This document shows positions 2,563 through 53,796 of a stretch of DNA of 64,000 bases, in pieces (positions within the stretch are counted from its first letter, which is position 1; every line of letters begins with the position of its first letter). This DNA is from Spirochaetaceae bacterium (GTDB taxonomy: Bacteria > Spirochaetota > Spirochaetia > Treponematales > Treponemataceae): NCBI GenBank assembly GCA_017936665.1, contig JAGBFB010000010.1, forward strand, positions 1 to 64,000. Direction: 5' to 3'. The position numbers were made by a program, and so were the translations under genes. Below the pieces are notes generated by a model. The model worked only from the letters and a program-made list of their open reading frames with translations. It was not told the origin of the DNA and did no database searches.

Positions 2563-4557
2563 ATGGCACGAACAGCAACTATGCGTCTTTTAGAGTTAAT
2601 GGTTCTAAAAGAAGACATTGCAAAAGTAATAGAATATATCGGAAAAGCAAAATGCTTTCAGTTTGATACAGACTTAGATGAAATTAAATCTTCTGTTTCA
2701 AATTCTTTTAAAGATACTTTTGATAAATTACAACTTGTAAGAAATTTTCTTGGTATTCAAGATGTAGAAGATTATGATGATGATTTTGCTTTACCTTCTG
2801 AGCAAGATGAGATTAGAGCAAATACAATTCTTGATTCTATTGATGATTTGAAAAAACGGGAATCTCAAGCAGCTGAAGAAAAAAAACGCATTGATGATGC
2901 TTACAAAGAAGCTCTTTCTTTTTCAAATTTGAAAGTACCTTATTCTCAATTGGATCATCTTTCTTTTTTAAGTTTACGAATAGGAAAAATCGATCCAAAG
3001 GTTTATGAGGAATTGGCTTTTGCTGTTGGAACTCGTGGAATTGTTATTCCTCTAGGTGAAGATAAATCAAAGATTCTTGCAGCATCTTCTAAAAAAGGAA
3101 GATTTGCCTTAGATTCAGAATTAAAAAAATACGGTTTTGTGGCTTTAGAAATTCCAGAAAATTTTAAGGGAATTCCTGATGATGTTTTAGCTTCAATGCA
3201 AATTGAAGCTGCAAAGGTAAAAGAAACTTTAGATTCTATTCAAGAAGAACGAAAAAATTTTGCAGATACTCATAAAGATGAAGTAATTTCTTTGTTGCGA
3301 CATTATTCAATTGGAATGCAGGTTCAAGCAATTCAAAATAAACTAGAATCTACTCAGTTAGTTTATAGAATTACCGGTTGGATTCCTTTAAGTCAATCAA
3401 GAGATTTTATGAATGATTTAGATGAACTTACAGAAGGAAGAATTGCAATCCGTCAATTTAATCCAAATGAAGTTCCTGCTGTAAAATCTGGTAGAGAAAA
3501 AGTTCCTGTAAAACTTAACCATGGAAAGATTGTAGGCAATTTTGACAGAATGGTTTTTAGTTACGGTGCTCCTCTTTATGGAACAATCGATCCAACTCCT
3601 TTTGTTGCCTTCTTTTTTACATTACTTTTTGGATTGATGTTTGGAGATGCTGGTCAAGGTTTGGTTTTCTTAATTCTTGGAATTTTAATGACAACTGGCG
3701 TAATAAAAAAGTTTCCAGTTTTAGGTGCAGGTTTTGGTCCAGTTTTTGTTTGTATCGGAATTAGTAGTACCATAATGGGAATTTTAACTGGTGAGTTTTT
3801 TGGTAATGGTCAAATTTTAGAACCTGTATCTAAATTTTTAAAAGGATTATTTGGTGTAACAAGTCATGGTCCTATTTTACATCTTATGCCATCAGCTAGT
3901 TCCATCGATAAACTTTTTTATTTCTTGTTATTTACCATGGGAATTGGTTTTATCATCAACTCTGTGGGCTTAGTGATAAATATTATAAATAATTTTTCAC
4001 TTGGAAGAATTGGTAAAGCAATTTTCAGCAAAACTGGTATTTGTGGAACAATTTTCTTTTGGTATGTGGTTTTTATCGCAATCAAAGTTTTCTTTCTTAA
4101 AAGTCCAATCTTTATTTATGATTGGATAATTTTAGGAATTTGTCTTTTAGGAATCTTTTTTTCAGAACCACTGACTCGTTTGGTAGAAGGTCATCATCCT
4201 GTTTTAGAAAATGGACTTGTTGCTACCATTGTAGAAGGTGTTGTTGAACTTCTTGAAGTTGTTTCAAGTTATCTTTCTAATTCAGTTAGTTTTTTGCGTG
4301 TAGGAGCCTTTGCTCTTGCTCATGCTGTTTTAGGATACATCATTTTTACAATGACTTCTTTAATTCAGTCTAATGGTGGAATTGGTGGAACTGCAGGAAG
4401 TATTGCTGTTTCGATTTTTGGAAATTTATTAGTTATCGTTCTTGAAGGAATGATTGTTGCAATTCAGGTAGTGCGTTTGCAATATTATGAATTTTTCTCA
4501 AAGTTTTTTACAGAAACTGGTAAAGAATTTGAACCATTTGAGTTCAAATATAAATAA
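2563..4557 (+). CDS. V-type ATPase subunit I (a-subunit, ion channel)
   Basis: Subunit I (NtpI, eukaryotic a) provides the ion half-channels beside the proteolipid ring. The 664-residue product has a cytoplasmic N-terminal half (about 1-340, charged, with coiled-coil segments) and a C-terminal half with about seven or eight membrane segments starting near FVAFFFTLLFGLMFGDAGQG. The essential channel arginine lies in SFLRVGAFALAHA (Arg about 579), the hallmark of the family. The ATG at 2563 starts 15 bases after subunit C. The product ends just before the K-subunit Shine-Dalgarno sequence. Confidence 0.93.
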   Translation: MARTATMRLLELMVLKEDIAKVIEYIGKAKCFQFDTDLDEIKSSVSNSFKDTFDKLQLVRNFLGIQDVEDYDDDFALPSEQDEIRANTILDSIDDLKKRESQAAEEKKRIDDAYKEALSFSNLKVPYSQLDHLSFLSLRIGKIDPKVYEELAFAVGTRGIVIPLGEDKSKILAASSKKGRFALDSELKKYGFVALEIPENFKGIPDDVLASMQIEAAKVKETLDSIQEERKNFADTHKDEVISLLRHYSIGMQVQAIQNKLESTQLVYRITGWIPLSQSRDFMNDLDELTEGRIAIRQFNPNEVPAVKSGREKVPVKLNHGKIVGNFDRMVFSYGAPLYGTIDPTPFVAFFFTLLFGLMFGDAGQGLVFLILGILMTTGVIKKFPVLGAGFGPVFVCIGISSTIMGILTGEFFGNGQILEPVSKFLKGLFGVTSHGPILHLMPSASSIDKLFYFLLFTMGIGFIINSVGLVINIINNFSLGRIGKAIFSKTGICGTIFFWYVVFIAIKVFFLKSPIFIYDWIILGICLLGIFFSEPLTRLVEGHHPVLENGLVATIVEGVVELLEVVSSYLSNSVSFLRVGAFALAHAVLGYIIFTMTSLIQSNGGIGGTAGSIAVSIFGNLLVIVLEGMIVAIQVVRLQYYEFFSKFFTETGKEFEPFEFKYK

Positions 4558-4968: not shown

Positions 4969-5307
4969 GTGAATTATTTTATTATTGGGGAGCGAGAACT
5001 TGTTTTAGCTTTTTCTCTTGTTGGTGTTTCTGGTGCAGTTGCAGTAAATCGTGCTGAAGCCTTAGAAATATTTAATCAAGTTACAGGAAAAGGTTCAGGA
5101 CAGTTATCCGCTCCTTCAGTAGAGCAAATACCAAAGGTTCTCATTCTTACAGAAGAAGTTTCTGCCATGCTAGAAAGTGAAGTTTTAGATTGGCAGATGA
5201 AGGGAAATTATCCTTTAATAGTAGAAATTCCAGGTATTCACGGACATTTGCAAGGTCATAAATCTCTTTCAGATTCAATTCGTGAAGCGGTTGGAATTAG
5301 TGTTTAA
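4969..5307 (+). CDS. V-type ATPase subunit F
   Basis: Subunit F is a small Rossmann-like protein that binds the central shaft subunit D and regulates rotation. A GTG start at 4969 gives 112 residues beginning (M)NYFIIGERELVLAFSLVGV, matching the usual subunit F opening of a beta strand, I-G-D/E-R/E, then L-x-F-x-L-x-G-V. The C-terminal part has the conserved YPLIVEIPG strand. The frame extends upstream, but those codons overlap subunit K and do not look like the family. The ribosome-binding site is weak, so translation is probably coupled to subunit K, whose stop is 17 bases upstream. Confidence 0.87.
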   Translation: MNYFIIGERELVLAFSLVGVSGAVAVNRAEALEIFNQVTGKGSGQLSAPSVEQIPKVLILTEEVSAMLESEVLDWQMKGNYPLIVEIPGIHGHLQGHKSLSDSIREAVGISV

Positions 5308-29165: not shown

Positions 29166-29292
29166 TAAGAAATATTTCTTGTATTTATATTCCACTTTCA
29201 CACTTTGTAATAAAAACTTTCGACCAAAATTTTAATCAGGAAAGTTATTGTTTTTTTGAATCTGCCTGATATATTTATTTAAAATTTCATAC

Positions 29293-29320
29293 TTGACGGG
29301 GGGGGGAACTCTGATACAAT
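29293..29320 (+). promoter_or_regulatory. Poly(G)-spacer promoter of the FGE-fold lipoprotein gene (probable phase switch)
   Basis: A -35 box TTGACG (29293-29298) runs directly into a tract of nine G (29298-29306). The -10 box TACAAT (29315-29320) is preceded by TGA, an extended -10. The spacer is 16 bases and most of the first half is G, so gain or loss of a G changes the spacing. The transcript would start about 27 bases before the ATG at 29354. The block TTTCATACTTGACG plus G tract recurs upstream of the lipoprotein gene at 53693. Confidence 0.75.
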
Positions 29321-29353
29321 AAAATTGGATTTTTGTATACAAGGAAGGTTTTT

Positions 29354-32300
29354 ATGAAATTTAATTTTATGAAGTCAAAAATTTTTGAAGTTTTATCAAT
29401 TTTATTGTTTGTGGAAATTTTATTTTGTATAACAGGTTGTAAAGATTTGTTAATTTCTCAAAATGCAGCAAAAACTTCTATAAACATCAATTTGGATTTG
29501 TCAAAACTCATAAAAACTTCTAGAAATCAAACTTCGCAAGAAGTAACTGAATATCTTTTGAAAATAGAAGCCTATAATGCAGAAAATTATCAAGAGAACG
29601 CAGAAGTGGAAAATCTTCCATTGCTTACTCAAGCAAAAAGTAAGGTTGATGTAAGTGGCCTAGTAAAAGTAACTTTGGAAGTTCCAATTGATTCAAATGT
29701 AATTTTAGTTGCAAAACTTCATAAAATTATTGATGAAAACACAGAATCTGAAAAACCACTTTATAAAGGCAAAAGTGAAATTTTCAAAGTAAAAGAAAGT
29801 GATAACAAAATTCATTTAGTTTTAACAAAAACAAATTCTGATTTAGATATTGATATCAGTTTAAATACTCAAAGTACTTACAAAGTAGAACATTACAAGC
29901 AAAATATCGAAGATGATAATTACACACTTGTGGAATCCGACTCAGAAAACAAAACAGGCACGATTGGAACAAACACAGAAGCCGTTGCAAAATCATACGA
30001 AGGATTTAGCGTAAACCCATTTGAACAAAAACCAATTTTAGCAGACGGCTCAACTACCGTAAAAATTTATTACACAAGAAATGTTTACACCGTAATATTT
30101 AATGCAAACGGTGGAAGTTTAAAAGATGATACAAGTCAAAAAGTAAAATACGGTGAAACACCAGCAGAACCAACACCACCAGAAAAGGAAGGATATAATT
30201 TTGGCTATTGGTACACATCAAAAGATAATGGCGTAACTGAAGATGTTTCCTACAATTTTTCAACTACAGTAACAAATGATGTTACATTGTATGCAATGTG
30301 GATAGCAGGAACTGATATTGTTTATAAGGTAGAACATTATCAGCAAAATATCGAAGACGATGAATATTCTCTTGTTGAAGCTGACACAGAAACAAAAAAA
30401 GGTACAATCGGAACACAAACAGAAGCCACTGCAAAATCATACGAAGGCTTTAGCGTAAATCCATTTGAACAAAAAACAATTTTGTCAAACGGTTCAACTA
30501 CCGTAAAAATTTATTACACAAGAAATGTATACACTGTAACTTTCAATGCAAACGGTGGAATATTAAGCGAAAATAGTTCTCAAATTGTAAAATTTAAAGG
30601 AAAATCCACTGAACCAACAGAGCCTACAAAAGAAGGACATTTATTCCAAGGTTGGTACACAAGTGAAGATTATGGTGCAACGTTTAACGACACCACTTAC
30701 GATTTTGAAAAGGAAATTACTGAAAATATCACTCTGCATGCAAAGTGGTGGAATAGTTCAAGTTTTGTTTATGTAGAAGGTGCAAGTATAAATGGAGCAA
30801 TCACAGCAGAAGGCTACACAGAAAGTGAAATTTTCAAAGAAGGTGGAATTGTTTCTATTCCTAACTTTTACATAAGCGACCACGAAGTAACCCAAGAAGA
30901 ATATAAAGCTATTATGGGAACTTGGCCAGATGAATCAGTTACTGAAGAAACACTGTATGGTGTTGGCGATAATTTCCCAGCTTATTATATAAGTTGGTTT
31001 AATGCATTAGTTTATTGTAACAAACGAAGTATAAAAGAAGATTTAACCCCATGTTATTCAATAAAAGATAGTACAGATCCTAAAACTTGGGGAGATGTTC
31101 CAGATTCTGAAGACCATGAAAATTTTGAGACTTGGTTTAATGCAACTTGTGATTTTCAAGCAGATGGTTACAGACTACCAACGGATGCTGAATGGGAATA
31201 TGCTGCCCGAGGTGGAAATGGACTTACAGGTTTTCAGTACAAATACGCGGGAAGTAACTCAATAGATATGGTTGCATGGTGTAGTGAAAATTCTAGTGAA
31301 ACTAGTCACGAAGTAAAATTAAAACAACCAAACGAATTAGGCTTATACGACATGTCTGGAAATCTTTGGGAATGGTGTTGGGATGATTCTGCTAGTGATA
31401 ATTTAATAAATTACCGAAAAAATCGAGGTGGCAATTGGTATGATGGTACCGATGGATGTATGTTATCTTATAGAAATAACTATTTCTCTTATGAGCGTAT
31501 GAGTAATATCGGTTTCCGTGTAGTTCGTACAGCAACAGAACAATCTCAAGGAGATGTTTATTCTCAAGGAATCTCACTTAATGGCAAAATCTACGATAAA
31601 ACCAGCGAAGTTGTAGTTGTTCCAAAAGGTACTGTAGCAAAAATTGAAATGACAGACGATTCTAGTTGGAATACTTATTATGAAGGTGATGATGCTAGTC
31701 TAAAAGGTGTTTTCTTGAAAGACAGAAAAGTTCAGTTAAGTCCATTTTCAATGAGTCAATTTGAAGTTACACAAGAATTGTATGAAGCAGTTTTTGATTG
31801 GAATCCTAGTAATTTTCAAACCGGTGTTGCAGATAGTGAAGTTCAAGAATTACGCCCTGTTGAATGTATTTCTTGGTATGATGCAGTAAACTTTTGTAAT
31901 GAATTAACTAAACGCACAATGGGTGAAGAACATTGTGTTTATAAAATAGAAAATTCTTCTTATCCTAATGGCTATATAGAATATGCAGATGTATCTATAG
32001 ATTTATCCAAAAAAGGTTACCGTTTACCAACAGAAGCCGAATGGGAATTTGCCGCCCGTGGAGGAGACCCCGCAAAGCCAGAATGGAAATATGCTTACGC
32101 AGGAGTTCAAACAAATATAGCAAAAGATTCTTTTTCGAATTATACAGATAGTACTTCTTTAGAAGAATTCGGATGGTATGGTTGTAATAGTGATAGCAAA
32201 ACTCACGAAGTTGGAAAGAAATATCCAAATACACTCGGTTTGTTTGATATGAATGGTAACGTGTATGAATGGTGTTATGATTGGCATAGTGATGAGATTG

Positions 32301-32476
32301 ATACTACAGTTGTAAATCCTTTGGGTGCAAATTCTGGGGAAAAACGTTCTGCCCGAGGAGGATGTTTAACTAGTAATCATAAATGGGCTTCTGTGGGTTA
32401 TAGATTTACAATGACACCTGGAGTTAATGACGATTCTGGTATCGGTTTCCGTCTAGTTCGCACAATTACAGAATAA
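29354..32476 (+). CDS. Large lipoprotein with two InlB/MucBP-like repeats and two FGE-sulfatase-fold domains
   Basis: The 1040-residue product starts with a signal peptide ending in the lipobox CITGC. Residues about 176-323 and 324-470 are two similar units, each with YKVEHYKQNIEDD/YQQNIEDD, then SYEGFSVNPFEQK, VKIYYTRNVYTV and FNANGG, resembling MucBP/InlB B-repeat adhesion modules. Two formylglycine-generating-enzyme-type domains follow (about 470-735 and 750-1040), each with YRLPT-AEWE-AARGG, then GN-WEWC/YEWC and ending GFR-VRT. Catalytic FGE cysteines are not evident, so a binding role in this C-type-lectin-like fold is likelier. AAGGAAGG precedes the ATG at 29354. Regulation is probably by the poly(G) promoter. 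Confidence 0.85.
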   Translation: MKFNFMKSKIFEVLSILLFVEILFCITGCKDLLISQNAAKTSININLDLSKLIKTSRNQTSQEVTEYLLKIEAYNAENYQENAEVENLPLLTQAKSKVDVSGLVKVTLEVPIDSNVILVAKLHKIIDENTESEKPLYKGKSEIFKVKESDNKIHLVLTKTNSDLDIDISLNTQSTYKVEHYKQNIEDDNYTLVESDSENKTGTIGTNTEAVAKSYEGFSVNPFEQKPILADGSTTVKIYYTRNVYTVIFNANGGSLKDDTSQKVKYGETPAEPTPPEKEGYNFGYWYTSKDNGVTEDVSYNFSTTVTNDVTLYAMWIAGTDIVYKVEHYQQNIEDDEYSLVEADTETKKGTIGTQTEATAKSYEGFSVNPFEQKTILSNGSTTVKIYYTRNVYTVTFNANGGILSENSSQIVKFKGKSTEPTEPTKEGHLFQGWYTSEDYGATFNDTTYDFEKEITENITLHAKWWNSSSFVYVEGASINGAITAEGYTESEIFKEGGIVSIPNFYISDHEVTQEEYKAIMGTWPDESVTEETLYGVGDNFPAYYISWFNALVYCNKRSIKEDLTPCYSIKDSTDPKTWGDVPDSEDHENFETWFNATCDFQADGYRLPTDAEWEYAARGGNGLTGFQYKYAGSNSIDMVAWCSENSSETSHEVKLKQPNELGLYDMSGNLWEWCWDDSASDNLINYRKNRGGNWYDGTDGCMLSYRNNYFSYERMSNIGFRVVRTATEQSQGDVYSQGISLNGKIYDKTSEVVVVPKGTVAKIEMTDDSSWNTYYEGDDASLKGVFLKDRKVQLSPFSMSQFEVTQELYEAVFDWNPSNFQTGVADSEVQELRPVECISWYDAVNFCNELTKRTMGEEHCVYKIENSSYPNGYIEYADVSIDLSKKGYRLPTEAEWEFAARGGDPAKPEWKYAYAGVQTNIAKDSFSNYTDSTSLEEFGWYGCNSDSKTHEVGKKYPNTLGLFDMNGNVYEWCYDWHSDEIDTTVVNPLGANSGEKRSARGGCLTSNHKWASVGYRFTMTPGVNDDSGIGFRLVRTITE
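29879..30766 (+). repeat. Two tandem 444-base coding repeats within the lipoprotein gene
   Basis: The unit starting at 29879 (tacaaagtagaacattaca) recurs 444 bases later at 30323 (tataaggtagaacattatc). The DNA is nearly identical over long stretches, for example around GCAAAATCATACGAAGG and ACTACCGTAAAAATTTATTA. The similarity at synonymous sites implies fairly recent duplication or gene conversion, so copy number may differ between strains. Confidence 0.8.
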
Positions 32477-53015: not shown

Positions 53016-53693
53016 CTAAAGTCTTTCTAATTCCATATTTACTGAATAATAAAACTTATAGTCACCATATTCATTTTCACCATCACCAAAATTACTTTCT
53101 AGCTCTGAAGAAGACTGTATTTTAATTTTTGTATTTGCGGGATTAGTTCTAGCATCCCATTCTGAACTACCGCTTCCTAACAAATCTCCAATCTCTGGGA
53201 AATAGGCATATGGGGATATAAATGATTCGTAAAAATTATATACAGGCTCATTATTTTCTAACTTGTGCCCATAACTTCCAAACAAATCAAATTCTCGTAT
53301 ATCATAATATCCCGTTTCAGGTCCATTTGGGGTAGATATTGTTATTTTCATTAATTTTTTATTTTCTTTACTTTCCTTTTCTTCAGAAATATCTGTTTCT
53401 TCATTGTATACGCTGTCATACCAGATTACATTTTCATTGACAACTTCGATTTTCATGCTGTAGTCAGCCTCGGTTTTGTCAAAATCTTCTTTATATTTTG
53501 CTACGTATTTTTCTCCTTCAGTAGTCAAATTTGAAAAAACATACTCTTGCGAACCAGTAACTGTTCCTTCCCATGTTCCTTCAAACCAATCGTAAGTTAA
53601 AAGATCATCAATAACAAAATACTGACCACAACTTGTAAAAACAAAAAGTGATATAGAAAATAAAACTGTTAAAACTACTGTCAACTTCTTCAT
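53016..53693 (-). CDS. Lipoprotein of unknown function under a poly(G)-spacer promoter
   Basis: The 225-residue product has a signal peptide ending in the lipobox VFTSC (Cys22) and an acidic mature part, Tyr/Phe/Trp-rich (for example YDWFEGTWEGTVTGSQEYVF), resembling a small beta-barrel (lipocalin-like) in pattern; no family is recognised. GGAAGGAG precedes the ATG. The gene stands alone. Its upstream region shares the TTTCATACTTGACG plus poly(G) block with the lipoprotein gene at 29354, so expression is probably phase variable. Confidence 0.75.
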   Translation of the reverse strand: MKKLTVVLTVLFSISLFVFTSCGQYFVIDDLLTYDWFEGTWEGTVTGSQEYVFSNLTTEGEKYVAKYKEDFDKTEADYSMKIEVVNENVIWYDSVYNEETDISEEKESKENKKLMKITISTPNGPETGYYDIREFDLFGSYGHKLENNEPVYNFYESFISPYAYFPEIGDLLGSGSSEWDARTNPANTKIKIQSSSELESNFGDGENEYGDYKFYYSVNMELERL

Positions 53694-53768: not shown

Positions 53769-53796
53769 ATTTTACTGCTATTACCCCCCCCGTCAA
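53769..53796 (-). promoter_or_regulatory. Poly(G)-spacer promoter of the lipoprotein gene at 53693 (probable phase switch)
   Basis: On the minus strand TTGACG (53796-53791) runs into a tract of eight G (53791-53784). TAAAAT (53774-53769) follows after a 16-base spacer. The layout, spacing and preceding TTTCATAC are the same as at 29293-29320. The leader to the ATG is about 70 bases. Confidence 0.72.

Follow-up and report, generated by a model that had tools for sequence, protein, structure and literature searches.

A poly-G promoter upstream of an FGE-fold lipoprotein gene, one of about 20 similar promoters and a probable slippage switch

The promoter at 29288-29320 and the lipoprotein gene behind it

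The window, which is the whole 64,000-nt stretch of DNA that was analysed, contains on its plus strand a promoter with a run of nine G in its spacer, followed by the gene for a large lipoprotein. Read directly, the letters from 29288 to 29320 are CATAC-TTGAC-GGGGGGGGG-AACTCTGA-TACAAT. The box CATAC (29288-29292), which fits the C(C/A)TA(C/G) consensus of the promoter family described below, stands directly 5' of the -35 hexamer TTGACG (29293-29298), and the first G of the G9 tract (29298-29306) doubles as base six of that hexamer. An extended -10 element, TGA (29312-29314), adjoins the -10 hexamer TACAAT (29315-29320), so that the spacer (29299-29314) measures 16 bases. This direct reading confirmed the architecture given in the initial annotation, namely TTGACG with a G9 tract starting inside the -35 box, a 16-base spacer and TGA-TACAAT. 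The distance from the -10 box to the start of the lipoprotein had been given as 27 bases and is corrected here to 33, as the likely start codon is the ATG at 29354, located 3' of a ribosome binding site, AAGGAAGG (29341-29348), recognized by eye. The TTG at 29333 that appears as the start in the open reading frame list is a mechanical call, and the ATG with its AAGGAAGG was preferred. Runs matching G7 are enriched in the window, with five overlapping matches versus 0.45 expected. An Rfam scan of the gap upstream of the gene matched no RNA element.

The gene (29354-32476, plus strand) encodes a 1,040-aa lipoprotein with the lipobox ITGC and its cysteine at Cys29. Profile searches found PF09479 (List_Bact_rpt) twice, with an E-value of 1.2e-32, and PF03781 (FGE-sulfatase) twice, with an E-value of 5.5e-65, the two FGE-fold domains lying at about 30851-31528 and 31724-32461, which bears out the earlier description of the product as a repeat-bearing FGE-fold lipoprotein. 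For the last domain, the top match among solved structures is the Treponema denticola protein TvpA (2Y3C, E-value 6.4e-43), far above the true FGE enzymes. When this domain is aligned to the FGE-fold chain 5nxl, the two cysteines of the motif GGSFLCHESYC, the catalytic pair of FGE, are replaced, the query reading GGCLTSNHKWA at this position; the cysteine pair in the first FGE domain was judged by eye only. The last domain is thus probably a C-type-lectin-like module that binds a ligand, not a catalytic one.

A second copy of the promoter lies on the minus strand of the window (53796-53769) and reads TTGAC-G8-taatagcag-TAAAAT, with TTGACG at 53796-53791, TAAAAT at 53774-53769 and a spacer that is again 16 bases long. 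Its G8 tract was read from the sequence at 53784-53791. The gene that follows (53016-53693, minus strand) encodes a 225-aa lipoprotein with the lipobox FTSC; a Pfam search of this protein gave no match, and it matched a lipocalin-like lipoprotein profile weakly (E-value 9e-4).

A promoter family in the genome and its occurrence in relatives

The motif TTGACG8 (TTGACGGGGGGGG) occurs at 17 exact sites in the 2.58-Mb genome, compared to 0 for the reversed control. Adding a single G7 site and two whose tract begins with C or T brings the family to 20 promoters, 19 of which carry a tract of G8 or longer (full range G7-G10), and TTGAC followed by exactly G6 was found nowhere in the 2.58-Mb genome. 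By our count, 19 of the genome's 35 runs of G8 or longer stand in the promoter context of this family. Alignment of the 20 sites, anchored at both TTGAC and the -10 box, gave the consensus C(C/A)TA(C/G)-TTGAC-G(7-10)-(T/A)A(T/C)nnTGn-TAnnnT, with the extended TGn present in 13 of the 20. The invariance of TTGAC (20/20) is that of the search pattern itself, and as the scan for the -10 box favoured TAnnnT, the invariance of that box is partly by construction. Features that do not arise by construction are the upstream C(C/A)TA(C/G), an A seven bases 5' of the -10 box, and the presence of TAnnnT 7-9 bases past the tract (20/20). The successive positions of the upstream box are C in 18, C or A in 20, T in 19, A in 20 and C or G in 20 of the 20 sites. 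Searching for CTASTTGAC without regard to the G run yielded 33 sites versus 17 in the control, an excess close to the number of tract sites.

The spacing between the -35 and -10 boxes is 16 bases in 14 of the promoters, 15 in four and 17 in two. The longer the tract, the shorter the segment after it tends to be (r = -0.61, permutation P = 0.007), as illustrated by promoters in which G10-A, G9-AA and G8-TAA each precede TC(A/G)TGATATG. Because these two lengths compensate for one another, the spacing is the quantity that is conserved, and it is therefore under selection. These values lend no support to the suggestion in the initial annotation that G10 would be optimal and that G9 represents a moderate or low state of expression. 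That suggestion assumed a spacer optimum of 17 bases, which is an E. coli-type rule; the modal spacing here is 16, so that G9 is the modal state.

Each of the 20 sites is followed by a lipoprotein-type gene; a strict lipobox pattern is passed by 18 of the products, and inspection by eye extends this to all 20. At least seven of these genes belong to a lipocalin-like family, further members of which directly follow in places, and the others include CotH, OmpA, TRL, DUF6567 and FGE families. The genes behind the family promoters thus do not form one related family, and the sites lie dispersed through the genome. A run of similar form, TATAGAT-G9-TACTCGTTACCCC (C22:20083; locus at 5092, minus strand), stands before a large lipoprotein gene and has no TTGAC; it is a possible degenerate member of the family.

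Paralogues of the FGE lipoprotein gene differ in what precedes them. The nearest (contig C40, 57-65% identical) has kept TTGAC-G9, with the rest of its promoter diverged, while a third (C12) starts 25-50 bases past another gene and has no tract. The fourth is a giant lipoprotein gene (C1:1712-7815) split into four overlapping frames, and two of its three frame breaks coincide with coding G9 tracts at 3875 and 6880, the third break not being at such a tract. In addition, a gene on C13 has its frame broken at a coding G8, and in genes on C7, C17 and C29 the reading frame continues unbroken through a G9 close to the start. The genome thereby appears to use promoter and coding G tracts alike.

Across 274 genomes of the bacterial family, none apart from the window's own has more than three TTGACG7 sites, and some of these sites lie in a similar context, such as TTGAC-G8-TATCATGATAATGT in another genus. 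The longer pattern CTA(C/G)TTGACG8 gave only eight scattered records, from unrelated organisms, among 84,980 species in a collection that may omit the window's own genome. TTGACG7 is absent from the assemblies of two sister species, both of which are incomplete, and the G8+ tracts of these species are mostly in other contexts. Promoters of homologues in relatives were located by position, and several were left out where the match started without a start codon. In one sister species of the same genus (G001), a lipocalin-like lipoprotein gene has 108 bases ahead of it a C-rich, interrupted 16-base spacer, TTGACCCCTCCTCCCCCCATGTTAAAAT (locus L247), which may be a relative of the window promoter that does not slip.

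A genome from another genus (G016) contains 70 tracts of G8 or longer, about 12 of them near TTGAC and several with C9 in the spacer. Its C9-spacer promoters, TTGACACTA-C9-GTGC-TATAAA (of the type TTGACAcTA-C9-GTGC-TATAAA), precede exported proteins and lipoproteins at loci L154, L161, L163, L167, L185 and L201, with a one-base difference between the spacers of the paralogues L161 and L163. Promoters with a homopolymer in the spacer seem to have more than one origin within the family. A different layout, in which the tract adjoins the -10 box, is seen in the window's own genome at C22:540-549 (locus L056), where TTGACA-AAACTTATC-G10-CATAAT, with a spacing of 19, precedes a short gene whose product has a double-glycine leader like a bacteriocin precursor; lipoprotein genes in G002 (L180) and G016 (L220) have this layout ahead of them as well.

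Probable slippage, a possible shared regulator and other readings

The G9 tract at 29298-29306 is probably one copy of a lineage-specific promoter that acts as a slippage switch and is carried by about 20 mostly unrelated lipoprotein genes. Under this mechanism, slipped-strand copying would add Gs to, or remove Gs from, each tract within the population. As the -35 hexamer TTGACG would be untouched by slippage, only its distance to the -10 box would shift, within the 15, 16 and 17 bases seen among the promoters. If the spacing sets expression, transcription of each gene would go up or down randomly and independently of the others, and the outcome would be a combinatorially varied lipoprotein coat, assuming surface exposure of the proteins. 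The initial annotation had proposed a promoter tuned by slippage in its spacer, and this remains the best explanation, strengthened by the genome-wide pattern; that same pattern, with about 20 such promoters, shows that the arrangement is not peculiar to the FGE lipoprotein.

The closest view of a change in tract length comes from a tandem pair of lipocalin-like genes on contig C18, 527 bases apart, whose promoters carry G8 and G9, respectively. These promoters are identical over the 31 bases 5' and the 91 bases 3' of the tract, with one difference in the first 159 bases 3' of it. As the flanks are identical and the tracts are not, the tract changed while its flanks stayed the same. Of 17 poly-G tracts tested in T. 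pallidum, all with 8 or more G, 76% show variation within strains, and the poly-G between the -35 and -10 boxes of TP0126 sets transcription via spacing (PMC7864442).

Some observations count against slippage. Compensation holds most sites at a spacing of 16, as in a fixed promoter; the CCTA(C/G) box is conserved more than slippage requires; and the two sister species, both with incomplete assemblies, are without the motif. Since the upstream box exceeds what slippage needs, a shared regulator is a live addition to the slippage reading or a rival to it. As an addition, we tentatively suggest that C(C/A)TA(C/G)-TTGAC-Gn-AT..TGnTAnnnT may form one portable cassette, in which a putative regulator acting on the upstream box would be combined with slippage at each gene, giving coordinated control with a random setting.

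As a rival, the shared regulator would make the promoter a fixed regulon element, with C(C/A)TA(C/G)TTGAC-Gn bound by a dedicated regulator, or with RNA polymerase reading a spacer that is stiff and rich in GC, such that the lipoprotein genes would be controlled in a coordinated way. The G run would then serve for recognition or structure, and its length would be no switch at all. We consider this unlikely, since pure runs of 8-10 G are the form most prone to slippage, their lengths range from G7 to G10 and differ even between otherwise identical promoters, and the same genome has coding G tracts with broken frames. What such an element would account for well is the strong conservation 5' of the -35 box and 3' of the tract, the compensation that keeps the modal spacing at 16, and the C-rich, interrupted spacer before the lipocalin-like lipoprotein gene of the sister species.

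Several of the downstream genes are paralogous, including the lipocalin-like family and the FGE pair, and the promoters could in principle be recent copies that arose when lipoprotein genes were duplicated, the G run being a functionless passenger of common descent. This is very improbable given that the downstream genes fall into at least five unrelated families and that the FGE paralogues retain TTGAC-G9 despite otherwise diverged promoters; moreover, unconstrained G runs would decay at about 31% GC, yet TTGAC-G6 does not occur. Finally, although assemblies can miscall homopolymer length, such that any single length, and only the exact length, stays uncertain, a chance motif or an assembly artefact is ruled out by the genome-wide counts, with 17 exact sites where the reversed control has none and 20 sites sharing a consensus, all of them 5' of lipoprotein-type genes.

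Comparison with known poly-G and lipoprotein variation systems

The slippage mechanism proposed here is in itself already known from TP0126, porA and Vlp. The Vlp genes of Mycoplasma hyorhinis form one cluster and are interrelated, whereas the genes described here are mostly unrelated and their sites are scattered, and the homopolymer is poly-A there and poly-G here. The likeness lies in several lipoprotein genes each having a homopolymer in its own promoter region, which in the Vlp family gives independent on/off switching (PMC10502178). In Neisseria meningitidis porA, poly-G likewise lies between the -35 and -10 boxes, and transcription drops once the spacing leaves 17 (PMC7864442); that system, however, concerns a single porin gene, whereas in the present family the modal spacing is 16 and most sites have an extended -10 element.

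The nearest likeness is to TP0126 of T. pallidum, an OmpW homologue with poly-G between its -35 and -10 boxes, for which spacing sets expression and the product is an outer-membrane protein (PMC7864442), and T. pallidum probably belongs to the same bacterial family as the host of the window, which is probably treponeme-like to judge by the FGE relative TvpA and by the make-up of the family. The tracts of T. pallidum are diverse and occur at single genes, in contrast to the one consensus promoter that recurs about 20 times here, each time ahead of a lipoprotein gene, and the tprL tract lies across the -10 region, not in the spacer. As far as our literature searches show, with subscription papers and preprints outside their scope, a uniform poly-G module shared by about 20 lipoprotein genes that are scattered and mostly unrelated is new, as is the link of such a module to TvpA-like FGE-fold lipoproteins.

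For treponemes, poly-G promoter switching has been known at single genes, in an organism that can be cultured only with great difficulty. In the present genome a uniform module is found on about 20 lipoprotein genes, in a lineage whose GC content of about 31% makes each tract stand out. If the switch is confirmed, the genome would offer 20 natural replicates of one promoter at spacings of 15, 16 and 17 bases, and both the rule relating spacing to expression in spirochaetes and the rate at which the lipoprotein coat is re-mixed would become directly askable.

The FGE-fold lipoproteins would in this way be tied to a second, proposed mechanism of variation. T. denticola TvpA, which is likewise a lipoprotein of the FGE/C-type-lectin fold (PMC4891356), varies by a diversity-generating retroelement, whereas here variation is proposed to come from the promoter tract. 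The genome has two reverse transcriptases, neither of them inside the 64,000-nt window. The window's FGE gene was considered as a retroelement target, which was unsupported, as the template repeat that was found matches another lipoprotein. That template belongs to a diversity-generating retroelement at C40:43670-49115 (minus strand), the only one of its type seen, which comprises a 388-aa reverse transcriptase with the motif GNLTSQ, a 131-aa Avd-like protein and the template repeat. Two variable repeats lie in a 1,097-aa lipoprotein (C40:45822-49115), and in the best window of the comparison between the template and the terminal variable repeat, all 17 of 17 mismatches fall at template A positions.
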